A stretch of DNA of 14,000 nucleotides. Source: Bordetella parapertussis. Its GTDB lineage: Bacteria; Pseudomonadota; Gammaproteobacteria; Burkholderiales; Burkholderiaceae_C. Both the position numbers and the translations under genes were made by a program. Location: assembly GCA_945888535.1 (NCBI GenBank), contig CAMDAN010000068.1, positions 1 to 14,000 of the forward strand. The letters run 5' to 3'. The notes beneath the pieces are model-generated. The model saw only the letters and a list, made by a program, of their open reading frames with translations, did not search any database and had not been told where the DNA came from. Shown here one piece after another: positions 1-13,429 of the stretch (position 1 is its first letter; every line of letters starts with the position of its first letter).

Positions 1-1863
1 AAGCAAGGCATTGATGTTTTTTTGCTCCGTTTCCAAGTCGGAAATCGTTTGGGGCAGGGTGTCTAACTCGCGCTGCTCTTTGTAGCTCAGTTTGCGAACC
101 TTGGGTGTGGGTTGCGCTGGCGCGGCTGCAACGATGGCAGGAGCTGATGGAGGCGGCTCGGTAGAGGCGTTTTGATCACGGCCGTAGTTAAACGGCTTAG
201 CGCCTTTTTGTCCTTGGGCTTGGGCCAAGGCGCTGGCGCGTTTGCTTTGGATGAGCCAGTCTTGTACGCCGCCTTCATACTCGCGCCAACGGCCTTCGCC
301 CTCCGATGCAATGGTGCTGGTGACCACATTGTCTAAAAAGGTGCGATCGTGGCTGACCAAAAAAACCGTTCCATCGTAGTTTTGTAACAGGTCTTCCAAC
401 AACTCCAAGGTGTCAATATCGAGATCGTTGGTCGGTTCATCGAGCACCAACACATTAGCGGGACGCGCAAACAAACGTGCCAGCAACAAACGGTTTCGCT
501 CGCCGCCGCTTAACGATCTGACCGGCGAGTTAGCTCGGGCTGGAGAAAACAAAAAGTCGCCAAGGTAGCTTTTGACGTGTTGGCGCTTGTTGCCAATTTC
601 AATCCATTCGCTGCCCGGACTAATGAAGTCTTCCAGCGTTGCGTCCATGTCTAAGGCATTGCGCATTTGGTCAAAGTACGCCACTTGAATATTGGCGCCT
701 TGGCGCACCGTGCCCCAAGCGCTCTCGCCGGGGCTGGGTGCGGGGGCATTTTGGGGCGCAGGGTCTGGTGCAAGCTCGCCCAAGATGAGTTTGAGCAGCG
801 TGGTTTTGCCTGCGCCATTGGGTCCGAGCAGGCCGACCTTATCGCCGCGCAAAATCGTGGCTGAAAAATCGCGAACAATGGTTTTGTCAGGCCCAGCGCC
901 AGAGCGAGAGGCAAAGGTTTTACTGACGTGGGTTAATTCCGCCACCAGCTTTCCGCTGGCTGCGCCACTGGCGACATCCAATTTGACGCTTCCGACTGCG
1001 TCACGACGCGCCTCGCGCGTGGTCCGCATGTTTTCCAGGCGCGTAATTCGGCCTTGGGCGCGGGTTCGACGGGCTTCAACGCCTTTGCGAATCCATACCT
1101 CTTCTTGGGCCAAAAGTTTATCGGCGCGGGCGTTAATGACGGCTTCTTGCGCCATTTGTTCCTCTTTTTGCAGTAAATAGGCCGCAAAGTTGCCGGGATA
1201 GGATAAAAGCTGGCCGCGGTCGAGTTCGACAATGCGGGTCGCGACGCGGTCTAAAAACGAGCGGTCGTGGGTGATGGTGATCACGCTGCCTTTGAACTCA
1301 ATAAGTAAGTCTTCCAGCCATTCAATGGAGTCCAAGTCCAAGTGGTTGGTGGGCTCGTCCAGCAGCAAAACGTCCGGTTGCGTCACCAAAGCCTGGGCCA
1401 AGGCTACGCGTTTTTTGGTTCCGCCAGAGAGCGTGCGCACCACGGCTTGGGGGTCCAGGTGCAAGCGGTGCAGGGTTTCGCTCACACGTTGTTCCCAGTT
1501 CCAGCCGTCCAGCGACTCAATCTCGCTTTGCATGGCGTCTAAATCGCCGTGTCCTTGCGAGTACTCCTCAATCAGGTGGCGAATCCGGGCCAAGCCCAGG
1601 CTCACCGATTCGAAAATCGTGTCATCAGCCTCTAGCGTAGGTTCTTGGGCCACGTAGGCGATTCGGGTGTTGTTTTGGATCTGCAGGCTGCCGTCGTCGG
1701 GCTTTTCCATGCCTCCCAAAATTTTGAGCATCGACGATTTGCCCGCGCCGTTGCGGCCAATCAGGCCGACGCGTTCTGCTGTTTCGAGGGAAAAGCCTGC
1801 ATGGTCTAGCAGGGGAACGTGCCCAAAAGCGAGTTGGGCGTCAAGTAAAGTAATCAGTGCCAT
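1..1863 (-). CDS. uup: ABC-F family ATPase, Uup type (3' end outside window)
   Basis: Soluble tandem-ATPase protein of the ABC-F family, which acts on ribosomes or nucleic acid and is not a transporter; E. coli Uup is linked to precise transposon excision and ribosome function. The 621 visible residues hold two nucleotide-binding domains: Walker A GRNGAGKS near 36-43, signature LSGG near 145, Walker B DEPTNHLD near 169-176; then a charged linker (EEVWIRKGVEARRTRAQGR) and a second GPNGAGKTT near 347, LSGGERNR near 451 and DEPTNDLD near 475. The tail (KLSYKEQRELDTLP and onward) is the start of the Uup C-terminal coiled coil, which separates it from EttA and YheS. The ATG at 1863 gives the usual N-terminus. 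A Pro/Ala-rich stretch of about 15 extra residues (around 366-383) sits in the second ATPase domain. The membrane-protein gene ends only 10 nt upstream, so the two are probably co-transcribed. Confidence 0.93.
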   Translation of the reverse strand, partial: MALITLLDAQLAFGHVPLLDHAGFSLETAERVGLIGRNGAGKSSMLKILGGMEKPDDGSLQIQNNTRIAYVAQEPTLEADDTIFESVSLGLARIRHLIEEYSQGHGDLDAMQSEIESLDGWNWEQRVSETLHRLHLDPQAVVRTLSGGTKKRVALAQALVTQPDVLLLDEPTNHLDLDSIEWLEDLLIEFKGSVITITHDRSFLDRVATRIVELDRGQLLSYPGNFAAYLLQKEEQMAQEAVINARADKLLAQEEVWIRKGVEARRTRAQGRITRLENMRTTREARRDAVGSVKLDVASGAASGKLVAELTHVSKTFASRSGAGPDKTIVRDFSATILRGDKVGLLGPNGAGKTTLLKLILGELAPDPAPQNAPAPSPGESAWGTVRQGANIQVAYFDQMRNALDMDATLEDFISPGSEWIEIGNKRQHVKSYLGDFLFSPARANSPVRSLSGGERNRLLLARLFARPANVLVLDEPTNDLDIDTLELLEDLLQNYDGTVFLVSHDRTFLDNVVTSTIASEGEGRWREYEGGVQDWLIQSKRASALAQAQGQKGAKPFNYGRDQNASTEPPPSAPAIVAAAPAQPTPKVRKLSYKEQRELDTLPQTISDLETEQKNINALL

Positions 1864-1873
1864 GTGCGGGAGA

Positions 1874-2413
1874 TTATCCCCTGCGCAGGCGGCCTCCTGC
1901 GGCTAGAGCGAACTTAAAAGCGTAAAGCAACAAGACAGCCCCAAGCCAATCGCCTACTGCCATCGACCAGGTTTGGCTAAAGAAGTTGCCGCCGCTGCCT
2001 TGCCAGTAAAACCAGAGTTGGTGCATCACTGCGTTGAACGCCGCAAACACTACGGACAGTTTTAACAAGTCGGTTCCCGACAAGTTTGTCAGTTGGCGGT
2101 CCATGTGCATGAAGCGAATACCGACTTCACGCGCCAGCCACGGAGCCAAGCCCGAAATGACCCACGCGCCAAAAAGCGTGGGGCTTAAGAGTTCTGGGGG
2201 AGCGAGCAGCGATGTTATTGCGCTGCCTAAGACAATGCCGAGCGCGCCCCAATGTGAAAAAAGCAAAACGCCGATGAGTCGAACGCCGCTGGGTAAAAAA
2301 ATCAAAGAAATATGGGTGGAGAGAACGAGCGAAGGGAAAAGGGCCGCATTGAGAAAATACAGCCCGGCATACATAAAAGCCGTCCCAGCAACGATCAACC
2401 AGATCCTAATCAA
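1874..2413 (-). CDS. MASE1-like integral membrane protein, module copy B
   Basis: Not a family I can name with certainty. The 179 residues are almost all hydrophobic, with about five or six membrane segments (roughly 4-26, 34-68, 80-97, 115-137, 150-172). Marked motifs are FLPSGVRLIGVLLF and WGALGIVLG near 39-64, SGLAPW near 87 and LTNLSGTDLLKL near 108-119. Topology and the FLPSG element resemble the MASE1 sensory membrane domain, but no GGDEF, EAL or kinase output domain is attached. It is paralogous to the membrane protein at 2924-3481. The start is uncertain: the frame opens with TTG at 2413 directly after an in-frame stop, with no good ribosome-binding site; the first ATG is at 2374. It follows the winged-helix gene by 69 nt and precedes uup by 10 nt. 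Inference: a membrane sensor or partner for that regulator. Confidence 0.75.
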   Translation of the reverse strand: MIRIWLIVAGTAFMYAGLYFLNAALFPSLVLSTHISLIFLPSGVRLIGVLLFSHWGALGIVLGSAITSLLAPPELLSPTLFGAWVISGLAPWLAREVGIRFMHMDRQLTNLSGTDLLKLSVVFAAFNAVMHQLWFYWQGSGGNFFSQTWSMAVGDWLGAVLLLYAFKFALAAGGRLRRG

Positions 2414-2482
2414 TCAAGGTCACACTTAACCCTGTTGTGAGGCGCTTGCATTTCTAAAACAGCTGAACCGGTGAACGTATAT

Positions 2483-2839
2483 TTATGCGGCTCTGGCTTT
2501 TTCTAAGCACTGACCCATGCGCGAGAAATAATCGTTGGAGCCCTTGGTAGGAATCACGTACTTCACGCGGTTGTCTTCATCGTCGAGTTGCAGTGCCAGC
2601 AAGCCCTTCTGGCGAAGGAGCTTCAGGCGGCGGTGCGCAGTCGAGGGTGAAATCTCAGGCATGATTTCCATGGCTTCGAGCACGGTGATTTTTTTATCGC
2701 GGGCCCAAGCCAGTCCCAAAATATAGAGCATCCGCTCATCGGTGGCATCCAAGCTAGGAAAGCTGGGTAAGGACCGAACGGCGGCAACCAAGTTCAGGAA
2801 GTTCAAAAAAACCGACGCGTTATCAGAAGCTTTGGCCAT
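2483..2839 (-). CDS. Small winged-helix (MarR-like) DNA-binding protein, module copy B
   Basis: A 118-residue cytoplasmic protein with a winged helix-turn-helix. Helices run over about 33-80, with ITVLEAMEIMPEIS leading into the recognition helix STAHRRLKLLRQKG (66-79), then a wing with DDEDNRVKYVIPT (86-98). The wing pattern D-x-D-N-R-V-K is typical of MarR-like regulators, but the protein is shorter than MarR proteins (about 140-150) and has no separate ligand domain. It aligns without a gap to the 118-residue protein at 3683-4039, with about 65 identical positions by hand count. The ATG at 2839 is preceded by GAAGG about 10 nt upstream. The gene lies between the two membrane-protein genes on the same strand, and the AT-rich 84-bp gap upstream likely holds its promoter. 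Inference: a transcription regulator of its own module. Confidence 0.82.
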   Translation of the reverse strand: MAKASDNASVFLNFLNLVAAVRSLPSFPSLDATDERMLYILGLAWARDKKITVLEAMEIMPEISPSTAHRRLKLLRQKGLLALQLDDEDNRVKYVIPTKGSNDYFSRMGQCLEKARAA

Positions 2840-2894
2840 ACGAAGATTAACCCTTCATTATCAAAAAACATGTTTAAAACAGAATTAACTGGAT

Positions 2895-2914
2895 TAAATC
2901 ATTAAATTGATTTA
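2895..2914. promoter_or_regulatory. AT-rich inverted repeat between the two module copies
   Basis: TAAATCA, a 6-nt spacer, then TGATTTA form a perfect 7-bp inverted repeat in the AT-rich 84-bp gap (2840-2923) between the upstream membrane-protein gene and the second winged-helix gene. It sits about 56 nt upstream of the ATG at 2839, which suits an operator. With this base composition, chance is possible. Confidence 0.35.
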
Positions 2915-2923
2915 TTTGGCAAT

Positions 2924-3481
2924 TTAGGTGTTGTTTATTTTGCCGCTTCCCAAGCGGCTTCCGATGGTAATGCAGGCTTTGATGGCGTACAAAACGGCGA
3001 GTGTTCCCAAAATATTACCCACCATCCGAGACGACAGATTTTCAAAAAACGGCCCCGCGTAACCAAAAATCAGCAACCAGAGTTCCAAAGCGATGGCCGT
3101 TGCAACCGAACAGACAAAGCCTATTTTGAGCAAAGTCGTTGGGGTGAGGTTGGACAGGCTGGTGCGTAACTTCATGGCGTAGATGGCGAAACTCGACCCC
3201 GCCCATGGTGCCAGGCCGGTAAGGATGCAAGCGCCGGTGTTAATCAAGCTGAAGTCGGAAGAGAAATCTTGCGTTGACATAAGGCCTCCCAATACGATGC
3301 CCAATGCGCCCCAGCCGCCAAACAAAATCACAATCAGCAAAGACAGGCCGCAGGGTAAAAACAACCACGTAAAGCCGTTGTTCAGTGGCAAAAAGCCAAA
3401 CACCCACTCGTTAAGTGCGGAAACCAACATAAACGCCAAGGCCGATAAGGCGACACTTGCGCTTGTAATCAAAGAGGGCAT
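2924..3481 (-). CDS. MASE1-like integral membrane protein, module copy A
   Basis: A 185-residue polytopic membrane protein with about five or six hydrophobic segments, paralogous to the protein at 1874-2413. Shared blocks are LFLPCG (about 40-45) matching IFLPSG, GGWGALGIVLGG (55-66) matching SHWGALGIVLGS, TGLAPW matching SGLAPW, LSNLTPTTLLKI matching LTNLSGTDLLKL, and a last helix with NILGTLAVLYAIKA matching DWLGAVLLLYAFKF. No cytoplasmic output domain is attached. I chose the ATG at 3481 because it gives nearly the same length as the paralogue; an in-frame TTG at 3526 would add 15 residues, and neither has a strong ribosome-binding site. A hairpin terminator at 3595-3640 lies between this gene and its winged-helix partner, so it may be attenuated or have its own promoter. 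MASE1 likeness is judged from topology and motif feel only. Confidence 0.75.
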   Translation of the reverse strand: MPSLITSASVALSALAFMLVSALNEWVFGFLPLNNGFTWLFLPCGLSLLIVILFGGWGALGIVLGGLMSTQDFSSDFSLINTGACILTGLAPWAGSSFAIYAMKLRTSLSNLTPTTLLKIGFVCSVATAIALELWLLIFGYAGPFFENLSSRMVGNILGTLAVLYAIKACITIGSRLGSGKINNT

Positions 3482-3535
3482 ACGGGCTTTCAGTCGGGTA
3501 AAAAACTTCAAGCAGTATGTTGGCAAACATGCGCG

Positions 3536-3657
3536 TGGGTGTTCGGTTTACCAAGCGCGACTTACTACCCAAAACGGTAAGTTTCCCCCCAATGAAAAAC
3601 CCCTGCGAAATCCGTTGACCGGACCTGGCAGGGGTTTTTTAGCGCTTGGGTGTTCGG
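3536..3657. repeat. 11-bp direct repeat flanking the intra-module hairpin
   Basis: TGGGTGTTCGG occurs at 3536-3546 and again at 3647-3657. Inside this, CCAAGCGC (3551-3558) and GCGCTTGG (3642-3649) form a perfect inverted pair around the terminator. The 201-bp gap between the winged-helix stop and the membrane-protein ATG therefore holds layered repeats and no gene. Confidence 0.5.
3595..3640. terminator. Bidirectional-looking intrinsic terminator
   Basis: AAAAACCCCTGC (3595-3606) and GCAGGGGTTTTT (3628-3639) make a perfect 12-bp stem over a 21-nt loop that contains a smaller stem (TCCG at 3611-3614 with CGGA at 3620-3623). Reading on the minus strand, the stem ends in GGGG followed by five T, so it would stop transcripts leaving the winged-helix gene at 3683. 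The plus-strand reading also ends in a run of T. Its position inside the two-gene module is unusual. Confidence 0.8.
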
Positions 3658-3682
3658 ATTTGCTATTTCGAAATTGTTAGCT

Positions 3683-4039
3683 TCAAGCTGCGTTCGCAGT
3701 GGCCATACATTTGCCGAGTTGTCCAAAATACTGGTGGGCGGCTTTTGTCGGGACGACGTATTTGATCCGGTTGTCGATTTCATCAAGGTTCAGGTCGATC
3801 ATGCCTTTTTTGCGCAAGAGTTTGAGTCTGCGGTGGGCGGTGGTGGTTGAAATTTCAGGCAGCATCACCATCGCTTCAAGCACCGTGATTTTCTTTTCCT
3901 TGAACCACGCCGTGGCTAAGGTGTTGAGCATCTGAACCTCTACGGCATCGAGATCCGGGAAGCTTGGCAACGCGCGAATTGATTGAACAAGGTGCAGGTA
4001 CTTCAAATACATCTGCGAAAGATCGGTATTTTTGGACAT
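3683..4039 (-). CDS. Small winged-helix (MarR-like) DNA-binding protein, module copy A
   Basis: A 118-residue protein, exactly collinear with the one at 2483-2839. The central DNA-binding part is the most conserved: ITVLEAM, PEIS, the recognition helix TTAHRRLKLLRKKG (about 66-79) and the wing DEIDNRIKYVVPTKA (86-100). The N-terminal region shares LPSFPxLDA (24-32). There is no metal site, cofactor motif or signal peptide. The ATG at 4039 follows a 12-bp palindrome (4047-4058), and the 151-bp upstream gap holds a perfect 13-bp inverted repeat. It is first of the four module genes on this strand, downstream of mmsA, with no clear terminator between. Inference: autoregulator of its module, possibly controlled by the neighbouring membrane protein. 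Confidence 0.82.
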   Translation of the reverse strand: MSKNTDLSQMYLKYLHLVQSIRALPSFPDLDAVEVQMLNTLATAWFKEKKITVLEAMVMLPEISTTTAHRRLKLLRKKGMIDLNLDEIDNRIKYVVPTKAAHQYFGQLGKCMATANAA

Positions 4040-4046
4040 TGTGGAT

Positions 4047-4058
4047 CCGCTTAAGCGG
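4047..4058. promoter_or_regulatory. 12-bp palindrome just upstream of a start codon
   Basis: CCGCTTAAGCGG is a perfect palindrome ending 7 nt before the ATG at 4039. It covers the place where a ribosome-binding site would lie, so it could be a protein-binding site or a small RNA structure affecting translation. Short enough to be chance. Confidence 0.35.
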
Positions 4059-4110
4059 TCTCATAGTAGGTATTGAAACAACGTATGTTGTTTTCCAACG
4101 AAACGCAATA

Positions 4111-4144
4111 TTACCTATTGCATTGAGGATTATGCAATAGGTAA
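4111..4144. promoter_or_regulatory. Perfect 13-bp inverted repeat, candidate operator
   Basis: TTACCTATTGCAT (4111-4123) and ATGCAATAGGTAA (4132-4144) match perfectly as an inverted repeat with an 8-nt spacer. It lies 71 nt upstream of the winged-helix start at 4039 and 46 nt beyond the mmsA stop. No run of T follows on either strand, so it is unlikely to be an intrinsic terminator. Dyad size and spacing suit a dimeric winged-helix or LysR protein. A half-site-like TAGGTATTG occurs at 4066-4074. Confidence 0.6.
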
Positions 4145-4168
4145 CTGTCGTGAATCTGACCCAGACTA

Positions 4169-4180
4169 CGCCTTAAGGCG
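4169..4180. other. 12-bp palindrome downstream of mmsA
   Basis: CGCCTTAAGGCG is a perfect palindrome 10 nt past the mmsA stop. No T run follows on the minus strand, so it is a weak candidate for a terminator or mRNA 3' stem. Confidence 0.3.
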
Positions 4181-4190
4181 CAGTTGAGGC

Positions 4191-5696
4191 TTATTTGCTA
4201 CTTGGGAAGCTAAACATCGCGCCTTCGCGCACGCCAGCCGAGGGCCAGCGTTGGGTGATGGTTTTGCGTTTGGTGTAAAACCGCGCAGCGTCGGGGCCGT
4301 AGGCGTGTAAATCGCCAAACAATGAGCGTTTCCAGCCGCCAAACGAGTGGTAAGCCACGGGAACTGGCAAAGGCACGTTGACACCGACCATGCCGACCAA
4401 AATATTGTCGGTAAAGTAGCGCGCCGCTTCACCGTCGCGGGTGAAGATGCAGGTTCCGTTGCCGTATTCGTGGGCGTCAATCAGGTCCATGGCTTCTTGT
4501 AGCGTTTTCACACGCACCACGCCCAACACCGGTCCAAAAATCTCTTCTTGGTAAATCTTCATCCCAGGCTTGACGTTGTCAAACAAGCAGGCACCCAAAA
4601 AGTAGCCTGCTTCGTGACCTGCGACTTTGACGTTGCGTCCGTCCACAATCAGGTTCGCGCCTTCGGCAACGCCTTGGTCAACATACGCTTTGACCTTCTC
4701 AAAATGCGCCTTGGTAACCAAGGGTCCCATGTCCATGCCGGCATCGGTTCCTGGGCCCACTTTCATTTTTGCAATTTCGACCTTAAGGCCTGCAATGACT
4801 GCTTCAGCGGTTGCATCACCCACCGCAACAACCAAAGGAATCGCCATACAGCGCTCGCCGCACGAACCGTAAGCTGCGCCCATCAAAGCGTTAACAGCAT
4901 TGGGTACATCGGCATCAGGCATCACTACGGCGTGGTTCTTTGCGCCGCCCAAAGCCTGAACCCGTTTGCCATGGGCACAGCCGGTGGCGTAAATGTATTC
5001 CGCAATCGGGGTCGAGCCGACAAAGCTAATGGCTTTGACGCGGGGGTCGGTGAGCAAGGTATCTACGGCTTCTTTGTCGCCGTTCACCACATTCAAAACG
5101 CCTGGTGGCAAACCAGCCTCGAGTGCCAACTCAGCGACACGCAAGGTGCTGCTAGGATCGCGTTCTGAGGGTTTCAAAATAAAGGTGTTGCCGCATGCAA
5201 CCGCCATAGGCCACATCCATAAAGGCACCATGATGGGAAAGTTAAACGGCGTGATACCTGCTGTAACGCCTAAAGCTTGAAACTCGCTCCAAGAATCAAT
5301 GGCAGGCCCGACGTTTTTGCTGTGCTCACCTTTAAGGAGTTCGGGGGCGTAGCTGGCGTACTCGACGTTTTCAATACCGCGCTGCAATTCGCCCATGGCG
5401 TCAGCCAATACTTTGCCGTGCTCGGCGGTGAGGAGTGCGCACAGTTCATCAGCGTGTAGCTCTAACAACTCTTTGAGCTTGCTCATCACGCGGGCGCGTT
5501 TGAGCGGGGGCGTATTGCGCCACGCGGGGTAAGCCGCGTGGGCATTGGCAATGGCCTGTTCTACGGTGAGCTTGTCGGCTAAAAGCAAACGTTTTTCTGC
5601 CTTGCCAGTGGCGGGATTAAAAACGTCGGCTTGGCGGGCGCCGCCTTGGGTGCGCTTGCCGCCGATGAGGTGGCCAATGAGAGGAAGTGAGGACAT
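4191..5696 (-). CDS. mmsA: CoA-acylating (methyl)malonate-semialdehyde dehydrogenase
   Basis: Oxidises malonate semialdehyde (or methylmalonate semialdehyde) with NAD+ and CoA, releasing CO2 and giving acetyl-CoA (or propionyl-CoA); cytoplasmic. The 501-residue length is normal for the family. Family marks are the core FNFPIMVPLWMWPMAVACGN (about 151-170), ILKPSERDPS, the NAD loop FVGSTP near 226, ALGGAKNH near 248, and the catalytic cysteine in GERCMAI near 283. The usual ALDH general-base glutamate before LGG is replaced by alanine, as is typical for CoA-dependent MmsA enzymes. EEIFGPVLG near 382 is also present. The ATG at 5696 is 27 nt after the aminotransferase stop, so the two form an operon; that context favours the beta-alanine role (BauC-like) over valine or inositol catabolism, where the relatives MmsA and IolA act. 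Confidence 0.92.
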   Translation of the reverse strand: MSSLPLIGHLIGGKRTQGGARQADVFNPATGKAEKRLLLADKLTVEQAIANAHAAYPAWRNTPPLKRARVMSKLKELLELHADELCALLTAEHGKVLADAMGELQRGIENVEYASYAPELLKGEHSKNVGPAIDSWSEFQALGVTAGITPFNFPIMVPLWMWPMAVACGNTFILKPSERDPSSTLRVAELALEAGLPPGVLNVVNGDKEAVDTLLTDPRVKAISFVGSTPIAEYIYATGCAHGKRVQALGGAKNHAVVMPDADVPNAVNALMGAAYGSCGERCMAIPLVVAVGDATAEAVIAGLKVEIAKMKVGPGTDAGMDMGPLVTKAHFEKVKAYVDQGVAEGANLIVDGRNVKVAGHEAGYFLGACLFDNVKPGMKIYQEEIFGPVLGVVRVKTLQEAMDLIDAHEYGNGTCIFTRDGEAARYFTDNILVGMVGVNVPLPVPVAYHSFGGWKRSLFGDLHAYGPDAARFYTKRKTITQRWPSAGVREGAMFSFPSSK

Positions 5697-5723
5697 GAAA
5701 GCTCAAGTAAAGTTAAAAAATGC

Positions 5724-7100
5724 TTATTCGGTGGCGTTGATGGCTTCGCCTAAGGCGTTGATCAAGCTGTCAATTTCTGACTTTTCGATGATAAAGGGCG
5801 GTGCGAGAGCAATCGTGTCGCCGCTGTAGCGCACATAAAAGCCTTTCTCAAGGCATTTCATCGCGACCTCATAAGGCCGTTTTAAAGGCTCGCCGGGTAC
5901 GGCTGCGAAAGTAAACCCCGCGGCCAAACCGATGTTGCGAATATCGGTAATGTGTTTTGCGCCCTTCAGGCTGTGAACCGCTTGTTCAAAATAGGGCGCA
6001 AGACTGGCAACACGCTCGACCATATTTTCTTTCACCAACACATCCAAGGCCGCAATACCTGCCGCGCAAGCCACGGGGTGCGCCGAGTAGGTGTAACCAT
6101 GGGCGAGTTCGAGCGCGTACTCTGGGCCGCCTACGGCCATGAACGTGTCGTACATCTCTTTCTTGACGACAACGGCGCCCAAGGGTTGCGCACCGTTGGT
6201 AATTTGTTTGGCGCAATTCAAAATATCAGGCGTGACACCGAAATAGGCAGAACCGGTGTAAGCGCCCATGCGACCAAAACCGGTAATGACTTCATCAAAA
6301 ATCAACAAAATATTGTTAGCCGTGCAAATCTCACGTAAGCGTTGCAAATAGCCTGGTGGTGGTATCACGACACCGCCTGAGCCCGACATGGGTTCGACAA
6401 TCACAGCGGCAATGTTCGATGCGTCATGCAGCGTAATGAGCTTGAGCAATTCGTCCGCCAACTCAATGCCGTTCGGTGGCATGCCTCGCGAAAACACGTT
6501 GCTGGCCAATTGGGTGTGAGGCAAATGATCGGCCTCAATGCCTTGACCAAACATTTTGCGGTTGGGGCCAAGGCCACCCACGGAGATACCCGCAAAGTTA
6601 ACGCCGTGGTAGCCTTTCTCACGCCCGATAAAACGGGTTTTGGTACCCATGCCTTTGGCACGCCAGTAAGCGCGTGCCATCTTCAAGGAGGTGTCAGCGC
6701 ACTCCGAGCCTGAGCCGGTAAAAAACACATGGTCCAAACCTGCGGGCATGAGTTCAGTAATTTTGTTGGCCAACTCGAATGACAAAGGGTGACCGTACTG
6801 GAAAGCAGGTGAGAAATCCAAAGTGCCAATTTGGCGACTGACTGCTTCCGTAATTTCGGGGCGGCCATGGCCTAATCCGCTAGACCATAAGCCTGACAAT
6901 CCGTCCAAAATTTTGCGGCCATGCGAGTCGGTGTAATACGCGCCTTTGGCGCTCACCATCATGCGGGGGTTGGCTTTGAAGTTGCGGTTGCCGGTGTAGG
7001 GCATCCAGTGCGACTCCATCCACGCTGCGTCGTTCGGAAACGTCGAGGTGGAGGTCACTGCGGCGTGACTTTGTTGGGTGGTGTTGTCGTTAAGCTTCAT
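5724..7100 (-). CDS. bauA: Beta-alanine (omega-amino acid):pyruvate aminotransferase
   Basis: PLP-dependent class III aminotransferase that moves the terminal amino group of beta-alanine to pyruvate, giving malonate semialdehyde and L-alanine. Family signatures include ESHWMPYTGNRNFKANPRMM (about 29-48), the phosphate-binding GSGSE (129-133), GREKGYHGVNFAG (159-171), IFDEVITGFGR with the PLP-contacting Asp (267-277) and the Schiff-base lysine in CAKQITNGAQPLGAVV (Lys about 298). Length 458 is close to the roughly 450 of Pseudomonas homologues. The ATG at 7100 has a good ribosome-binding site (GGAG about 8 nt upstream). It is followed by mmsA, which uses its product, and is divergent from a LysR gene, the likely regulator. 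Related enzymes act on taurine or polyamine-derived amines, so other omega-amino substrates remain possible. Confidence 0.92.
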   Translation of the reverse strand: MKLNDNTTQQSHAAVTSTSTFPNDAAWMESHWMPYTGNRNFKANPRMMVSAKGAYYTDSHGRKILDGLSGLWSSGLGHGRPEITEAVSRQIGTLDFSPAFQYGHPLSFELANKITELMPAGLDHVFFTGSGSECADTSLKMARAYWRAKGMGTKTRFIGREKGYHGVNFAGISVGGLGPNRKMFGQGIEADHLPHTQLASNVFSRGMPPNGIELADELLKLITLHDASNIAAVIVEPMSGSGGVVIPPPGYLQRLREICTANNILLIFDEVITGFGRMGAYTGSAYFGVTPDILNCAKQITNGAQPLGAVVVKKEMYDTFMAVGGPEYALELAHGYTYSAHPVACAAGIAALDVLVKENMVERVASLAPYFEQAVHSLKGAKHITDIRNIGLAAGFTFAAVPGEPLKRPYEVAMKCLEKGFYVRYSGDTIALAPPFIIEKSEIDSLINALGEAINATE

Positions 7101-7142
7101 GGTTTTCTCCAGTTTGAGGGGTGTGGAAGTGACAAAACGCCT

Positions 7143-7170
7143 ATTGTGGTGATTTCTGTTACTCTCGCAA
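7143..7170 (-). promoter_or_regulatory. Candidate promoter for the bauA-mmsA operon
   Basis: On the minus strand TTGCGA (7170-7165), a 16-nt gap and CACAAT (7148-7143) give a plausible sigma-70 pair, with four of six consensus bases in each box, ahead of the ATG at 7100. A LysR-type dyad adjoins the -35 box. Confidence 0.35.
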
Positions 7171-7186
7171 AGTGAGACCTATCACT
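7171..7186. promoter_or_regulatory. Candidate LysR operator between bauA and its regulator
   Basis: AGTGA (7171-7175), a 6-nt gap and TCACT (7182-7186) form an inverted repeat in the 102-bp divergent region. GTGAT at 7149-7153 and ATCAC at 7181-7185 give a second, wider pair. Position next to the candidate -35 box suits control by the divergent LysR protein. Confidence 0.45.
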
Positions 7187-7202
7187 ATTTAGTTGCCAGT
7201 TT

Positions 7203-8159
7203 ATGAAACTAACAAACCCCGCCCCTGCCCCCGTTCGCTCCGCGCTTGGCCAGTTCAGTGACATGGATTTGCGTTTACTGCGTGTGTTTAGAGCCGTGGT
7301 GGACTGTGGCGGTATGGCGGCGGCGGAGTTGGAACTCAACATTGGCACTTCCACGGTGAGCCGCCACATCAAAGATTTGGAAACCCGTTTGGGCTTGGTG
7401 TTATGCCGAAGGGGCCGGGCGGGTTTTGCGTTGACCGCAGAAGGTCAAAAAATTTATGCCCAAACGACCCAACTCCTTGCTGCAACCGATGCGTTTAGAA
7501 GCAGTGTGGATGAGATTCACCAGCGTATGGGCGGGCAGTTGCAAGTGGCGGTTTTTGATAAAACAGTCAGCAATCCACAGGCCAAAATCTCCCAAGCGAT
7601 TGCCCTGTTTACCAAACGCGCTCCCGATGTCGGGCTCAACCTGCACGTAGCAACTCTGAACGGGATTGAGCGCGGTGTTCTTGACGGCCAGTTTCATTTG
7701 GGCATTATTCCGGGCCACCGCAACTCCGATACCTTGACCTACTCGCCCTTGTTTGGTGAAAGCATGCGCTTGTACTGTGGCGAAGGCCATGCGTTTTTTG
7801 GGGCTGACCATGGCGCTCTGGATTGGGACGCGGTTCGCGCCCAGCCTTTTGCGGGCTTGGGCTACCACTCGCCTAATTTGCAAGTGAGTCAACGCTTGAA
7901 CCTGACCCGCGCAGCGACCGGGTTTGATCAAGAGTCGATCGCCACTTTTATTTTGTCGGGCCGGTATCTGGGCTTTTTGCCTGACCATTACGCTCGGAGC
8001 TTTGTTACTAGCGGAAAGATGCAGGCTGTTAAACCCGAGCTCTTTCAATACGACTGTGATTTTTTGGCGATCACCCGCCGTTCGCCGCAGGCCTCTCGCG
8101 CGACGCGGGCATTTTTGGAGTGTTTAGAAAAAGCCCACCTCAACCTTGGTAAAACTTAA
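7203..8159 (+). CDS. LysR-family regulator, divergent from bauA-mmsA
   Basis: A 318-residue LysR-type transcription factor. After a 20-residue leader, the N-terminal winged helix-turn-helix covers MDLRLLRVFRAVVDCGGMAAAELELNIGTSTVSRHIKDLETRLG (about 21-64), followed by CRRGRAGFALTAEGQKIY and a periplasmic-binding-protein-like effector domain from about 110. In place of the usual S-x-A-A the helix reads GGMAAAELEL, a mild variant. The ATG at 7203 gives the leader; an ATG at 7263 would begin exactly at the DNA-binding domain, and neither has a strong ribosome-binding site. Its divergent position, 102 bp from the aminotransferase, implies it controls beta-alanine or amine catabolism, probably as an inducer-dependent activator. 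Its last 20 bp overlap the convergent dadA end. Confidence 0.9.
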   Translation: MKLTNPAPAPVRSALGQFSDMDLRLLRVFRAVVDCGGMAAAELELNIGTSTVSRHIKDLETRLGLVLCRRGRAGFALTAEGQKIYAQTTQLLAATDAFRSSVDEIHQRMGGQLQVAVFDKTVSNPQAKISQAIALFTKRAPDVGLNLHVATLNGIERGVLDGQFHLGIIPGHRNSDTLTYSPLFGESMRLYCGEGHAFFGADHGALDWDAVRAQPFAGLGYHSPNLQVSQRLNLTRAATGFDQESIATFILSGRYLGFLPDHYARSFVTSGKMQAVKPELFQYDCDFLAITRRSPQASRATRAFLECLEKAHLNLGKT

Positions 8160-9429
8160 ACGCCATCGCAGGTGCCTGACCGCCCATTAGCTCGGCCAAG
8201 GCTTTGCCTGAACCTGCACCGTGGGTCCAGCCCAAGGTACCGTGGCCTGCGTTAACCCACAGGCCTTTGATTTTGGTTTGGCCGATAAACGGAATATTGG
8301 TGGGTGTGGCGGGGCGCAAGCCCGTCCAGTAGCGGGGGTTGCCCCCTTCTTCCTCGGTGCGGGTATCGCACATGCCTGGCCAAACCTCTTCAACGCGCTT
8401 AGACAACATCTGGCAACGGGCGCGTGCCAAGGGGCTGTCTAGCCTGAGGTCGTAGCCGCCGACTTCGATGGTGCCAGCTACGCGGATTTGATCGCCTAAG
8501 CGCGTGATAGCGATCTTTTTTGCATCGTCAATCGTGGAGACCATGGGCGCATCTTGCGGCTTCAAAATATCAAATGTGGCGCTATAGCCTTTGCCCGGAT
8601 AAATGGGCAAATCGACCCCGACGGATCGCAGCAAGTGCGCGCTGTAAGAGCCGCAGGCAACCACCACATGGTCGGCGGTGTGCGGTTGATCCTGGCCTTG
8701 TACTTTGACAGTGGGTTGGCCTTCGCGATTAAGGTGAATGCTTTCGATGGCGTGGTTGTATAGAAACGCAACGCCGCGATCAGCGCAGCGTTGTGCCAAG
8801 GCTTGGGTGAACACCATGGCATCGCCGGACTCGTCGCTGGCGGTGAATGTTCCGCCTAAGATCTTGTGCGCAAAATTTTTCAGCGAAGGTTCGATTTTCA
8901 AAAGCTCGGCGCGACTGATCACTTTGCGGTCTACGCCGTATTTACCCATCAGGGCGGCGGCTTGGGCGGCGGAATCAAAAGAGGCTTGGTCACTGTAGTA
9001 GTGGGCAATGCCGCGCTCGACCCGTTGAAAGTCAATGCCTGTGGCGGCAATGATTTCCTTGAGGGCGAGGTGGCTGTAAGCGCCAAGCGCGACCAGTTGT
9101 TGCACATTGCGCTCAAAAGAGCGGTCGTTGCAGTTGGCTAAAAATTGCAAGCCCCAGCGGTATTGCCGCCAGCCTTCGCCCAAGGGATTTTGAGGGCGAA
9201 ACAACAAAGGCGCTTCTTTGCTGAACATCCACTTCAAAGCCTTCAAAGGCGCTTCCCGGTTGGCCCAGGGTTCGCAGTAGCTCACTGAGATTTGCCCCGC
9301 GTTGGCAAAACTGGTCTCCATGGCGGCGTCAGTTTGCCGATCCATCACTGTGACCGTATGCCCACGCTCAGCCAAATGCCAAGCGGTACTGATACCAATG
9401 ATGCCGGCGCCTAAAACAATAATTTTCAT
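8140..9429 (-). CDS. dadA: D-amino-acid dehydrogenase, FAD-dependent
   Basis: Membrane-associated flavoenzyme that oxidatively deaminates D-amino acids (D-alanine to pyruvate and ammonia), feeding electrons to the respiratory chain. The 429 residues match E. coli DadA in length and order: FAD-binding GAGIIG near 7-12 with Asp 30 ending the second strand, METSFANAGQIS (about 37-48), PLKALKWMFSKEAPL (61-75), VACGSYSAHLL, YPGKGYS, and the C-terminal RYWTGLRPATPTNIP and GHGTLGWTHGAGSGKALAELM. The ATG at 9429 is 85 bp from the ATG of the divergent ArgP-like gene. The 3' end overlaps the LysR gene by 20 bp. With the neighbouring aminotransferase, which makes L-alanine, it could recycle alanine to pyruvate given a racemase. 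Substrate range cannot be read from sequence. Confidence 0.92.
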   Translation of the reverse strand: MKIIVLGAGIIGISTAWHLAERGHTVTVMDRQTDAAMETSFANAGQISVSYCEPWANREAPLKALKWMFSKEAPLLFRPQNPLGEGWRQYRWGLQFLANCNDRSFERNVQQLVALGAYSHLALKEIIAATGIDFQRVERGIAHYYSDQASFDSAAQAAALMGKYGVDRKVISRAELLKIEPSLKNFAHKILGGTFTASDESGDAMVFTQALAQRCADRGVAFLYNHAIESIHLNREGQPTVKVQGQDQPHTADHVVVACGSYSAHLLRSVGVDLPIYPGKGYSATFDILKPQDAPMVSTIDDAKKIAITRLGDQIRVAGTIEVGGYDLRLDSPLARARCQMLSKRVEEVWPGMCDTRTEEEGGNPRYWTGLRPATPTNIPFIGQTKIKGLWVNAGHGTLGWTHGAGSGKALAELMGGQAPAMAFKFYQG

Positions 9430-9490
9430 AGATTGCAGTGTGACGGATAGGGCGAATTTGTAACAGCAAAATCACCTTGTTTGCGAAAAC

Positions 9491-9505
9491 ATTAGTTTGG
9501 TTAAT
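9491..9505. promoter_or_regulatory. LysR-type box in the dadA/argP-like divergent region
   Basis: ATTA, seven bases, TAAT: a perfect dyad containing the T-N11-A core of LysR recognition sites. It sits directly before the regulator's start at 9515, where binding would block its expression. It is part of a longer motif shared with the 12957-12977 site. Confidence 0.5.
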
Positions 9506-9514
9506 ACTAGAGCC

Positions 9515-10432
9515 ATGCGAAATTACGATCCTGACGCGCTAGAGTGCCTTGCCGCCATTGTGGAACAAGGCGGGTTTGAACGCGCGGCGGTGCGCTTGTC
9601 GATTACCCAGTCGGCGGTGTCGCAACGCCTTCGGGCATTAGAAGCCCAGGTGGGAACAGTGCTTTTAGTGCGCAGTCGCCCCGTTAAACCCACCAGCGCT
9701 GGGCGTTTGCTGATCAAGCACGCGATGCAGATGCGCTTGCTGCGGGCCGATTTGGAAACCGATTTACAAGACTTAGCTCCCGGCGCGAGCAAAGAGGAAG
9801 ACCGGGTTTCCATCGCTATTAACGCCGACAGCATTGCAACCTGGGCTTTGGGCGCGTTGGATCCTTTGATCCATGCGGGTTTGCCTTTGGAAATCATCAC
9901 CGACGACCAAGACTTTACCCACGACTGGCTGCGCGAAGGCTTGGTGCTGGGTTGTGTGACGACGCTTCAACAGGCCTTGCGGGGGTGCAAAGTGGTGTCC
10001 TTGGGCGCGATGCATTACGTGGCCGTTGCCAGCAGCAGTTACTCCCAAACGAAGTGCCCAGACGGCCTCACGCCCCACAATTTTCGTGACATTGCTTTTG
10101 TGGCTTTTAACCGCAAAGACGACGGGCCTGCGGAGTTTGTGGCGCGGGCTTTGGGGCTGCGGCGGGTGGCTTTGAACCAGCGCTTTGTTCCAAGCGCGGA
10201 CGGGCAATTGCGTGCTGCCTTGTCGGGTTGGGGTGCAGCTGTTTTACCCCGCTTGCGTGTTCAAACGCATTTGGATTCTGGCGACTTGGTGAATCTGGCG
10301 CCTGCACATTTTTTGCCAGTTGATTTGTACTGGCACTGCTGGAACCTCGATTCGCAAGTGATTGACCGGCTGACCGCAGCTTTGGTTGGCGCGGCAGAAC
10401 AAGCGCTCGCAAAAAATACTACAGAGTCATAA
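9515..10432 (+). CDS. ArgP/LysG-like LysR-family regulator
   Basis: A LysR regulator of about 305 residues very close in pattern to E. coli ArgP (IciA) and LysG, which sense basic amino acids and usually control the arginine/lysine exporter. Matching marks are the HTH EQGGFERAAVRLSITQSAVSQRLRALE, LLVRSRPVKPTSAGRLL, INADSIATWALGALDPL in the effector domain, GALHY-like GAMHYVAVAS, FVAFNRKDDGPAEFV and the C-terminal LYWHCWNLDSQ. I prefer the ATG at 9515 to an in-frame TTG at 9497 because it aligns with the ArgP N-terminus. Here the divergent neighbour is dadA rather than an exporter, so its target may be D-amino-acid oxidation; an exporter elsewhere is not excluded. It is followed after 47 bp by a TetR gene on the same strand. 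Confidence 0.88.
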   Translation: MRNYDPDALECLAAIVEQGGFERAAVRLSITQSAVSQRLRALEAQVGTVLLVRSRPVKPTSAGRLLIKHAMQMRLLRADLETDLQDLAPGASKEEDRVSIAINADSIATWALGALDPLIHAGLPLEIITDDQDFTHDWLREGLVLGCVTTLQQALRGCKVVSLGAMHYVAVASSSYSQTKCPDGLTPHNFRDIAFVAFNRKDDGPAEFVARALGLRRVALNQRFVPSADGQLRAALSGWGAAVLPRLRVQTHLDSGDLVNLAPAHFLPVDLYWHCWNLDSQVIDRLTAALVGAAEQALAKNTTES

Positions 10433-10479
10433 AAAAGTCTGGGGCAATAATTTAAAAAGCATCGGGCTAAAATTCAAAC

Positions 10480-11094
10480 ATGACTTCTACACCGCAACCC
10501 AAAGTGTCTTTCAAAGCCCAGATGTTGCAGGCCCGCGAGGACGCGATTATCCAAACGGCCAGTCGCTTGCTCGCCGAAAAAGGATTTGAAGCGATGACGG
10601 TGGATGAAGTGGCCGCCAGTGTGGGCATTGCCAAAGCCAGTTTGTACAAACACTTCCCCAGCAAAGAAGACCTCGCCGCCGCCGCAATGGTGCAGATCAT
10701 GCGAAGAGCGCAGGACTTTATTGGAGCGCTCCCCGCGCAGTCGGCGATGGACCAACTGCGCACCGTGGCGCGCTGGACCATGGAGCTCAAGCTCAAAGGC
10801 GAGATGCCTAACTTGCCTAGCCAAAACTCTACCTTGCGCGCCAAGTTGATGGCTGACAAAGCGTATATGGACGGGCTCATCGATGTGAGTGACCGCCTAG
10901 GCGAGTGGATTGAAGCCGCCCAAGCCCAAGGGCAGATCAACCCCGCATTGCCTGCCATCGCGGTGCTTTACACCTTGTACGCCCGCGCTTGCGATCCGGT
11001 GTTGGAGTTCTTAAAAATGGGCGGTCAACACGAGGACGCACAAATCATTGATCTGGTCATGTGCAGTTGTTTTGAAGGGCTCGCCGCGCGGTAG
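10480..11094 (+). CDS. TetR/AcrR-family transcription regulator
   Basis: A 204-residue TetR-type repressor. The DNA-binding domain lies at about 20-68: DAIIQTASRLLAEKGFEAMTVDEVAASVGIAKASLYKHFPSKEDL, with the classic recognition helix ASLYKHFPSKEDL. The rest is all-helical, and its ligand cannot be told. The ATG at 10480 has no clear ribosome-binding site. It follows the ArgP-like gene by 47 bp and could share its transcript. It converges on the metallophosphoesterase gene with a 17-bp gap, so no divergent target is visible; the regulated gene must be elsewhere or be itself. Confidence 0.88.
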   Translation: MTSTPQPKVSFKAQMLQAREDAIIQTASRLLAEKGFEAMTVDEVAASVGIAKASLYKHFPSKEDLAAAAMVQIMRRAQDFIGALPAQSAMDQLRTVARWTMELKLKGEMPNLPSQNSTLRAKLMADKAYMDGLIDVSDRLGEWIEAAQAQGQINPALPAIAVLYTLYARACDPVLEFLKMGGQHEDAQIIDLVMCSCFEGLAAR

Positions 11095-11111
11095 TGGGAC
11101 CAGCGGCAGCC

Positions 11112-11960
11112 TCACACTTCAATCGTTGAGCCTGCCCGAAAAAGCGTCTGTTCATTTTTTCGCGCATACCCCAAGGGGTTGGCGACCACACGGCATCCTT
11201 GGTGCAAATAATCTTGCGGGGCATGCAAATGGCCATGCAGCCACAACTGCGCTTGCGGTAGCAAATCATCCAACGCGTTACAAAAGCCAGCCGTCCCCGG
11301 CACCAAACCGTAGCGCGGATCGGCACTTCGCAAGCTAGGCGCAAAGTGGGTGACTACCACCGTTGTTCCGTCAAAGGGCTGGGCTAAGGCGTCGCGCAAC
11401 CAGGCCTGGCATTGCAGTGCATGTTCACGCACGGCATCGGCTAAAAATGGCGAACCGTTTCGGGCGGTGTTGGTTTTTTTGAGGTAAAAATTTGCCGCCC
11501 GAAAAGCCTTGTCACGGGCTTTGAGTTGCTGGGTGAGTTGCGAAGGTGAATGGGGTGTGTCGGGGCACAAGGCATCAAAGTCGGTCCACAGCGTAGTGCC
11601 AATAAACCGCACGGTTTTACCCACTTTGTCAGTCCATGGCGCAAGCCACACTTCGCGCTCTAACCACACCATGCCCAAGCGCTCGCAGGTCTCGCGCAGT
11701 CTGGCGTGGGCGTGGTCAAAGTCCATCCCGTCGTATTCGTGGTTTCCGGGCAGGTACAACACCGGCGTGGGCCATCCCTGCAAAGGAGAAAAGCCGGGCA
11801 AGCCAAAATCCGAGTCTTGGAGCAAAGACCCGTTTTGGTAGGAGCCGATGTCACCGGCCAAGACCAACAGGTCTGCGCCGGGAGCGCTCTGCGCTTGGGG
11901 CGAAGCCAAAAACTGCGGCTGAGACTCCAAGTGGAGATCGGAAAAGAGTTGCAACTTCAT
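11112..11960 (-). CDS. Calcineurin-like metallophosphoesterase
   Basis: A 282-residue cytoplasmic hydrolase of the calcineurin-like superfamily with two metal ions. The five motif blocks are all visible: D-x-H in SDLHLE (Asp 8, His 10), GDIG (Asp 37), GNHEYD (72-77), THFAPS (His about 205) and GHLHAP (243-248). Substrate is unknown; relatives cleave nucleotides, phosphodiesters or phosphoproteins. The ATG at 11960 was chosen because MKLQLFSDLHLE is the standard N-terminus; a longer open frame runs upstream, but only inside the preceding gene. The start overlaps the LysR stop by ATGA, so translation is likely coupled. There is no signal peptide. Confidence 0.88.
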   Translation of the reverse strand: MKLQLFSDLHLESQPQFLASPQAQSAPGADLLVLAGDIGSYQNGSLLQDSDFGLPGFSPLQGWPTPVLYLPGNHEYDGMDFDHAHARLRETCERLGMVWLEREVWLAPWTDKVGKTVRFIGTTLWTDFDALCPDTPHSPSQLTQQLKARDKAFRAANFYLKKTNTARNGSPFLADAVREHALQCQAWLRDALAQPFDGTTVVVTHFAPSLRSADPRYGLVPGTAGFCNALDDLLPQAQLWLHGHLHAPQDYLHQGCRVVANPLGYARKNEQTLFRAGSTIEV

Positions 11961-12934
11961 ACCGCCAGATCCATGTTCGGAGATGGAAACGCCAGCGTTG
12001 CGACGGCTTGAATTTGGTTGCGAAACCAGGTGTGCGCGCTGTCTTGGTGATGGCGACTGTGCCAAAGGGCGTCTACGTGAATGGGTGCCACTTCAAAAGG
12101 CAATTCGCGCACAGCAAGCTCCGATTCAAAGCCGGTGACGTTTAAAAAATGCCGTGGCAAAACAGCGAGTAAATCAGAATTGGCAACCACCTTTCCCGTG
12201 GTGAAAAATTGATTCACTGTCAACACCACGCGCCGGGTTTTATTGAGGCCAGCAAGGGCTTCATCAATCAGTCCAAAAGCTCGGCCTGAAAAACTCACCA
12301 GCGTGTGGTTGGCTTGGCAGTAGCTATCTAGAGTCAAGGGTTGCGCCGCTAAGGGATGGTCTTTGCGCATCACGCAAACGTAATCACTGGCAAAGAGGCG
12401 TTGGTGAAAGAACCGCGGTGAGCCGCTGGCTTGGGTCAGCGAAGCGAGTTCCGACAAAACGCCAGGGAAGTGTCCAATTGCTAAGTCGGCTTGCCCCTCT
12501 TCGAGCATGCGCCTGGGGTCGCGCGTGGTGAGTGGTACCACGTGTAAAGACACGCCAGGCGCTTGGCTGGTGACAGTGTTGATGAGCCCCACCATCAGCT
12601 CGGCGGCGGTGGCGTCTGCCAAGGTCAGAACGAACGTGTTGGTTGTGGTGGCGGGAGAAAATTTTTGAGGCGCGAGCGTGAGTTCTAAGTGCTGCAACGT
12701 TTCGCGAACCTTAGGCCACAAGGCCAAAGCCCGCGCGGTCGGTTGCAAGCCGCGCCCTTGGCGAACGAGCAACTCATCATCGAGCGCTACTCGCAAACGG
12801 CGCAATGCATTGCTGACAGCGGGCTGTGTTAACGCGAGAACGTTGGCCGCTTTGGTGAGGCTGCCTTCGGCCATGACGACATCAAAGACTTTCAGCAAAT
12901 TCAGGTCAAAGGTGCGGATGTTGAGTGGGAGCAT
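11957..12934 (-). CDS. LysR-family regulator (NodD/LeuO-like type)
   Basis: A 325-residue LysR regulator. The N-terminal FDLNLLKVFDVVMAEGSLTKAANVLALTQPAVSNALRRLR (about 9-48) is the DNA-binding domain, followed by a co-inducer domain with FVLTLADATAAELMVGLI and a C-terminal PIHVDALWHSRHHQDSAHTWFR. The RTFDLNLLKVFD start and the WH-x-R-x-x-x-D-x-A-x-x-W tail are typical of the NodD/SyrM/LeuO-like branch. It starts at the ATG at 12934, with a long dyad (12948-12973) just upstream. Its last codons overlap the metallophosphoesterase start, so regulator and enzyme are one transcription unit, an unusual arrangement for LysR proteins. The divergent small membrane-protein gene is another possible target. 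Confidence 0.9.
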   Translation of the reverse strand: MLPLNIRTFDLNLLKVFDVVMAEGSLTKAANVLALTQPAVSNALRRLRVALDDELLVRQGRGLQPTARALALWPKVRETLQHLELTLAPQKFSPATTTNTFVLTLADATAAELMVGLINTVTSQAPGVSLHVVPLTTRDPRRMLEEGQADLAIGHFPGVLSELASLTQASGSPRFFHQRLFASDYVCVMRKDHPLAAQPLTLDSYCQANHTLVSFSGRAFGLIDEALAGLNKTRRVVLTVNQFFTTGKVVANSDLLAVLPRHFLNVTGFESELAVRELPFEVAPIHVDALWHSRHHQDSAHTWFRNQIQAVATLAFPSPNMDLAV

Positions 12935-12947
12935 TTCTATATATAGA

Positions 12948-12973
12948 TTTGGTGAATAGTATTAATCACCAAA
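12948..12973. promoter_or_regulatory. Long inverted repeat, candidate LysR operator
   Basis: TTTGGTGA (12948-12955), a 10-nt spacer and TCACCAAA (12966-12973) form a perfect 8-bp dyad in the 102-bp gap between the divergent LysR and small membrane-protein genes. It is 14 nt from the LysR start at 12934. The adjoining CTATATATAG palindrome (12937-12946) could supply a -10 element. Confidence 0.6.
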
Positions 12974-13024
12974 CTAAAGTGGACTAACACTAGTGTAAAC
13001 CCTAAGATCACGCACATGTTTATC

Positions 13025-13030
13025 AAGGAG
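13025..13030 (+). promoter_or_regulatory. Ribosome-binding site that fixes the small membrane-protein start
   Basis: AAGGAG lies 6 nt before the ATG at 13037, which makes that start far likelier than the ATG at 13016. Confidence 0.7.
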
Positions 13031-13036
13031 TCTTCT

Positions 13037-13429
13037 ATGTCTCGCTTTACTTTTACTGAATTTGCTGGCGCTTCATCTTTCAATGGCGCTTCCGTAGTGG
13101 CTCCAAAATCGGAAGCCACACGCACGTTGGCCGGGCTCATGCTCGCCGGTGTGATGGCTGCGATGTTGGTGGTGGCCGATCAAGTGATCGACAACTGGGC
13201 CGACGGCCATTTGCTTTTAGGCTGGGTCGCTTTGTGGAGCGTGGTGTTTGCTGGGTTGGCTTTCTTTTCTCGCCCATTACGCAAAATCACCATGGCCTTG
13301 GCTGCCAGCGTGGATCGCCAAATGAAAGAGGCTGCCCAAATTCGCCGTGAAGAGCAAATGTGGGCGTTTGCTAACCGTGACCCCCGTGTCATGGAAGAGC
13401 TACGCGCCGCTGTGGCGCGCGCTTCTTAA
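13037..13429 (+). CDS. Small two-helix membrane protein of unknown function
   Basis: I do not recognise the family. The 130-residue protein has a polar N-terminus (SRFTFTEFAGASSF), two hydrophobic segments at about 33-50 (TLAGLMLAGVMAAMLVVAD) and 61-80 (LLLGWVALWSVVFAGLAFF), then a charged, helix-forming C-terminal tail rich in Arg, Glu and Lys (KEAAQIRREEQMWAFANRDPRVMEEL), probably cytoplasmic. It resembles small inner-membrane proteins common in Comamonadaceae genomes. The ATG at 13037 is chosen for its strong ribosome-binding site. It is divergent from the LysR gene and ends with its stop codon overlapping that of the PEP carboxykinase gene (13426-13429). Confidence 0.75.
   Translation: MSRFTFTEFAGASSFNGASVVAPKSEATRTLAGLMLAGVMAAMLVVADQVIDNWADGHLLLGWVALWSVVFAGLAFFSRPLRKITMALAASVDRQMKEAAQIRREEQMWAFANRDPRVMEELRAAVARAS

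Follow-up and report, generated by a model that had tools for sequence, protein, structure and literature searches.

We report a recurrent gene pair, found in a 14,000-nucleotide stretch of DNA from Bordetella parapertussis (contig CAMDAN010000068.1 of assembly GCA_945888535.1, positions 1 to 14,000; the whole of this stretch is henceforth the window). The pair couples a winged-helix protein family, termed H, with a small membrane protein family, termed M, and the window has two copies of each: H1, H2, M1 and M2. We propose, with a probability of roughly 45%, that H and M form a two-gene regulatory module in which M would be a receptor that controls H by holding and releasing it. The original prediction for this locus, made from the letters of the array, had described a tandem-duplicated and diverged module of a winged-helix regulator and a MASE1-like membrane protein that might together make up a split sensor. 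Its description of the genes is borne out: the minus-strand order is H2-M2-H1-M1, with each H followed by an M on the same strand; H1 and H2 can be aligned over their full length, 65 of 118 residues being identical and 94 similar, with 0 gaps (E 2e-52); M1 and M2 share 60 of 159 residues with one gap column (E 4e-27), and the motifs FLPxG, WGALGIVLG, GLAPW and LLK are visible in their alignment.

Co-occurrence and gene-neighborhoods of the H and M families

Two genome samples were searched with profiles of both families. In the family sample (299 genomes) H is present in 28, M in 27 and both in 25; in the order sample (300 genomes) H (E<=1e-6) is present in 28, M (E<=1e-10) in 25 and both in 24. 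One-sided Fisher tests of this co-occurrence, which ignore kinship, give p values of 6e-31 and 3e-30, respectively. The two samples were scored differently: in the order sample 91 genomes had an H match at E<=0.001, but only 28 passed the threshold of E<=1e-6 used for counting, as the remaining matches were weak or partial, and weak M matches in long frames (G677, G712, G910) were excluded; in the family sample every match was kept, including the weak M matches in long frames of G214 and G240. These two and G883 have M without H, and seven genomes have H without M (G102, G178, G256, G707, G751, G852, G904).

The H and M genes lie within about 400 bp of each other in 33 of the 46 genomes that carry both, and apart in 13 (G189 is scored as adjacent on account of a weaker H that appears in locus L084 only). 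The adjacent genes are mostly in tandem, H then M. Other arrangements are: divergent genes (G133, G277, G282, G628, G696, G795, where this occurs twice, G841 and G911); M then H (G738); convergent genes (G671); and M-H-M (G097). Three pairs are present in G727 and two each in G222 and G245. Among 23 tandem pairs inspected, 5 show a 4-base overlap between the H stop and a potential start of M (L065, L074, L076, L153 and L160, with L065 and L076 being close kin). H and M are thus a real, recurrent pair, and the adjacency of the two families that the original prediction had expected a profile survey to find is seen in several orientations, with M accompanying H in 25 of 28 and 24 of 28 H-bearing genomes of the two samples.

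The trees of the two families also match: across 50 adjacent pairs 19 of 47 splits are common to both (200 shuffles: mean 0.18, maximum 2), and the H and M distances correlate at 0.71, a value attained in 0 of 2000 permutations. As shared inheritance alone yields matching trees, this argues against partner swapping and not for contact. A search for a third partner gene was negative, with no Pfam family having more than two members among 70 flanking open reading frames (ORFs) picked from 90. Across the class sample (321 genomes), 40 had an H match at E<=0.001, of which two, in G004 and G133, are strong and the others have E>=3.7e-6; strong M matches occur in G004, G133 and G483 and a weaker one in G334, and six further matches fall in long proteins.

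Several variant neighborhoods were observed. In G334 two tandem M genes (L133:923-2025) directly follow a 105-residue frame, which looks winged-helix-like on reading its sequence and was missed by the H profile. Two M genes also stand in tandem at L090:90-656 and 1480-2049. In L180, L181 and L182 M is apart from H, which is elsewhere in the genome, and divergent beside a larger regulator-like gene that, from its sequence, we take to be a WYL-type regulator. In G883, alone in the order sample in having a strong M without any H, M neighbors a gene that reads like a photolyase (L177:1-1425 and 1474-2796).

Predicted folds of the H and M proteins

The H protein is modeled as a MarR-type winged-helix fold, a monomer with a single C-terminal helix spanning residues 99-117. 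Weak profile matches likewise link H to the MarR family, whose members PefR, MepR and the short SarA-like proteins it resembles in predicted fold. It differs from them in having only 118 residues, one C-terminal helix and window copies that fall below the Pfam cut-offs (H1 scores 17.8 bits against MarR_2, cut-off 27; H2 has no Pfam MarR match). A role as a defence gene was considered and rejected: H matches CRISPR-associated regulators weakly (E 0.0007 or more), and M has no match in a defence library at E<=0.1. A metagenome protein of 196 residues, P0003, has two H domains in tandem.

MASE1 (PF05231) is a sensor domain of histidine kinases and diguanylate cyclases. The designation of M as MASE1-like is only partly borne out: 41 of 74 family members match this profile at E<=1 (best 2.8e-10); in the window, M1 scores 14.9 bits, under the cut-off of 29.8, over profile positions 9-164 of 299, and M2 has no Pfam match at E<=10. 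Unlike MASE1, with its approximately 300 positions, M is about half-length (M1 has 179 residues), and both M1 and M2 stop after the membrane part, with no output domain. Among relatives, for which searches were restricted to 0.55-1.75 times the query length, none above 219 residues is listed, and no H-M fusion was seen by length among the 120 listed of 144 relatives. A relationship of M to Escherichia coli UhpB was rejected, as the profile comparison had a probability of 3 and aligned the wrong half; hence, the MASE1 link of M rests on the Pfam profile. No solved MASE1 structure was reached through UhpB, whose PDB matches (E<0.05) all lie within residues 270-497.

The AlphaFold2 model of M1 is a well-packed multi-helix fold, and the conserved M residues sit within its helices. 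Its best structural matches, filling the top 21 VIA-align rows, are S-components of energy-coupling factor (ECF) transporters, such as ThiT, RibU, FolT, BioY and BtuM. The sequence searches returned no S-component family in the Pfam tally of the 74 M members and no match of the M profile to PDB sequences at E<=1. According to the main text of Partipilo and Slotboom 2024 (PMC11109136), in which the terms 'MASE' and 'HTH' do not occur, S-components and 5TMR-type receptor kinases share a fold, with the receptors lacking the AXXXA motif of helix 1. The 5TMR-LYT receptor kinases described there (YpdA, BtsS) resemble M in that a member of the S-component fold group serves in sensing. In those kinases, however, receptor and output domain are fused, whereas M has a separate winged-helix protein as the proposed output; furthermore, PF07694 is not one of the 22 families matched by the 74 M members at E<=1.

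On this scale of receptor versus transporter M appears mixed, judging from its sequences: AXXXA occurs at the aligned position of helix 1 in 7 of 41 diverse members and in 18 of the 74 closer ones, M1 included, and anywhere in helix 1 in 14 of 41 diverse (10.7 expected by shuffling) and 39 of 74 closer members (21.7 expected). M thus differs from the ECF S-components in that the motif is not conserved in its diverse members, and also in that EcfT is usually unmatched. The latter (PF02361) was searched for in 38 of the 50 genomes carrying both genes (the 46 from the samples together with G001, G002, G003 and G005): 29 of the 38, of unestablished completeness, gave no match, as against matches in 10 of 14 controls. 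From its model, M is predicted to share a fold that binds small ligands elsewhere and may itself be the ligand-binding part, which the original prediction had missed. As this fold is ligand-binding elsewhere, the split would be one of receptor (M) and output (H).

Origin and fate of the duplicated copies

A scan of genome contigs with H2 recovered 36 loci, all on contigs of metagenome-assembled genomes (MAGs) titled Burkholderiales, Comamonadaceae, Rhodoferax, Comamonas, Sulfuritalea or beta proteobacterium. Between genes for an aldehyde dehydrogenase (ALDH) and a Uup-type ABC-F ATPase, L001, L002 and L003 have H-M-H-M and L004 has H-H-M. The other 32 have one H, followed by M in 28, while in L016, L030, L031 and L032 the contig stops in or shortly past H. 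On every contig that is long enough, the pair is bordered by ALDH and Uup. L030-L032 and L034-L036 appear to be halves of split loci, both sets deriving from the same three assemblies. As the single-pair clade has one common synteny, it counts as one inheritance. In quick trees (no bootstrap), H2 clusters with the single-copy H (SH-aLRT 97) with H1 as sister to that set (84), and one clade (87), of unresolved inner order, unites M1, M2 and the single-copy M. These placements put the doubling inside this clade: it either preceded the clade's split and was followed by loss, or came after the split, with H1 and M2 changing fast. The comparisons support the window array as a duplicated and diverged module, in which a single pair, located ancestrally between ALDH and Uup, probably became H-M-H-M. 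One MAG assembly, JAIPDD01, carries both H-M-H-M (L002) and H-H-M (L004) and is, for this reason, probably a mix of two strains or species.

The copies have met different fates, as indicated by NG86 estimates of the ratio of nonsynonymous to synonymous divergence (dN/dS) between the window and L001-L004. Against L001, L003 and L004 the ratio is 0.03-0.12 for H1 and H2 and 0.11-0.16 for M1; for M2 it is 0.30 and 0.50. The comparison of L003 with L001 gives 0.35 for M2 and 0.12 for M1, and that of the window with L002 0.82 and 0.32, but with a synonymous divergence (dS) of only about 0.03. An in-frame TAG interrupts M2 of L001 (a MAG sequence, where an assembly error is possible), and in L004 M2 is missing. 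M2 is under relaxed constraint or being lost, and both H genes stay constrained. Among 12 single-pair loci (66 comparisons) the mean identity is 90% for H and 49% for M. In the comparison of positions 1874-4039 of the window with L001, dS is uneven along the array (M2 0.12, H2 0.35, H1 0.55, M1 1.1), a pattern suggestive of recombination between lineages in this region.

A possible split receptor and the alternatives

A split receptor is proposed because of four features: the predicted receptor-type fold of M, the predicted DNA-binding fold of H, the lack of an output domain in M and the linkage of the two genes, retained through rearrangement. M would be a membrane receptor that stands on its own and has an S-component-like fold, in effect a half-MASE1 devoid of an output domain, that binds a small ligand. 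H, as a short MarR-type DNA-binding protein, would be its separate output, retained at the membrane or freed by M depending on the ligand state, and might regulate its own promoter along with, perhaps, a small number of others. PtsG holds Mlc at the membrane; the likeness concerns the proposed way of working only, with sequestration here suggested by analogy and no sequence relation claimed. In the window, two H genes would be served mainly by M1, the other M being relaxed or being lost. More tentative is the general form of the proposal, i.e. a recurrent two-protein system of Burkholderiales in which a free-standing, MASE1-related receptor with the S-component fold signals through a separate, minimal MarR-type protein. 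If true, it would represent the receptor side of the transporter-receptor fold in split form and bring MASE1-type sensors into the S-component fold group, thereby joining what such sensors bind with how S-component-fold proteins can signal.

With M2 relaxed, interrupted by TAG in L001 and missing in L004, the doubled array hardly resembles a set of two stable sensors: of the duplicated split sensor originally predicted, the recurrent pairing and the absence of an M output domain stand, and the doubling as two sensors is weakened. The adjacency is explained equally well by a regulator-transporter pair, the main rival, which we consider less likely than the receptor: here M would be a solitary S-component-like importer, and the MarR-type H would control M while sensing, in the cytoplasm, the compound brought in or one of its metabolites. 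The rarity of AXXXA at the aligned position in diverse M members speaks against an importer, as does the usual want of an EcfT match, although a truly solitary importer would not need EcfT; moreover, MASE1, the closest sequence family to M, is a sensor family. Two H genes with one M, as in L004, can coexist under either the receptor or the importer reading.

It is quite improbable that M is a membrane-active effector kept silent by H in the style of a toxin-antitoxin or stress cassette: such a cassette would fit two small genes that often overlap or diverge and whose duplication and loss recur, but the well-packed M1 model is not a small pore-like peptide, the conserved M residues lie within helices, and M lacks a match in the defence library. 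Least probable of all is that H and M are linked by shared inheritance in one order with no joint function, since, even though both families are nearly limited to the sampled order (strong H in 2 of 321 class-sample genomes) and the 28 single-pair loci with M, having one synteny, amount to one event, the adjacency survives changed orientation, changed flanks and repeated duplication.

As far as our literature searches reach, the H-M pair is unnamed, in agreement with the original prediction. These searches, for which most subscription papers were outside coverage, found no paper joining: MASE1 with the S-component or with the MarR family; UhpB, MASE1 and UhpC; the S-component fold with a transcriptional regulator; or any two of MASE1, winged helix and Limnohabitans. 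With about 300 residues in its two genes, the module is compact and mostly self-contained, which makes the ligand and the H-M contact proposed under the receptor reading testable in a laboratory host. The window lineage provides a natural experiment: a doubled module with one membrane copy relaxing and both regulators constrained.

Layout of the locus and its non-coding elements

The array lies between ALDH and the Uup-type ATPase on the minus strand (Table 1). An ATG kept in four sequences suggests that M2 begins at 3481 and not at 3526, to which the frame is open. The segment 2924-4150 had no match in a plasmid collection, and a plasmid gene was thus rejected.

Table 1. Genes and non-coding elements of the H-M array in the window
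Feature	Coordinates	Strand	Remarks	Basis
ALDH-like gene	4191..5696	-	name read off sequence	conserved upstream neighbor in single-pair clade
Inverted repeat in H2 leader	4111..4144	-	34 bp, 13-bp arms; possible operator or RNA hairpin	
H2	3683..4039	-	MarR-type winged-helix protein, 118 aa; copy nearer to relatives' single-copy H	ORF, alignment, model, H tree
Terminator-like hairpin between H2 and M2	3596..3639	-	12-bp outer stem, then T residues	
Box ACTTACCGTTTTGGGTAGTAAGT upstream of M2	3560..3582	-		sequence comparison
M2	2924..3481 (frame open to 3526)	-	small membrane protein, divergent copy	ORF, alignment, dN/dS
H1	2483..2839	-	second winged-helix protein, 118 aa; more divergent H	ORF, alignment, tree
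M1	1874..2413	-	small membrane protein; 179 aa with a TTG start, 166 aa with the ATG at 2374	
Uup-type ABC-F ATPase	1..1863 (start 1863)	-	621 aa; name read off sequence	conserved downstream neighbor in single-pair clade

The H2 leader (4040-4190) has three successive inverted repeats that are strongly kept in L001-L003, and a 111-nt stretch of it folds better than 200 of 200 shuffles (z -4.6). A leader RNA element was rejected, as 19 single-pair leaders gave no consensus structure and the two Rfam matches on 1700-4400 were both far under the gathering scores. A common H operator was likewise rejected: inverted repeats occur upstream of several H genes, but even the commonest 9-mer is confined to 3 of the 30 upstream stretches, and two of these are the same place.

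The gap between H2 and M2 is about 200 bp and contains a long terminator-like hairpin, followed by T residues and kept in four sequences, which was spotted by eye and is absent from the list of the terminator scan. Given this gap and hairpin, H2 and M2 are probably not one simple transcript here. Upstream of M2 lies a box whose first 21 bases are present once per genome in three related genomes; a dispersed repeat was rejected on this ground. The non-coding segment 3482-3682 as a whole is about as conserved as coding DNA (mean column identity of 92% in the alignment of four sequences), though M2 itself is relaxing.
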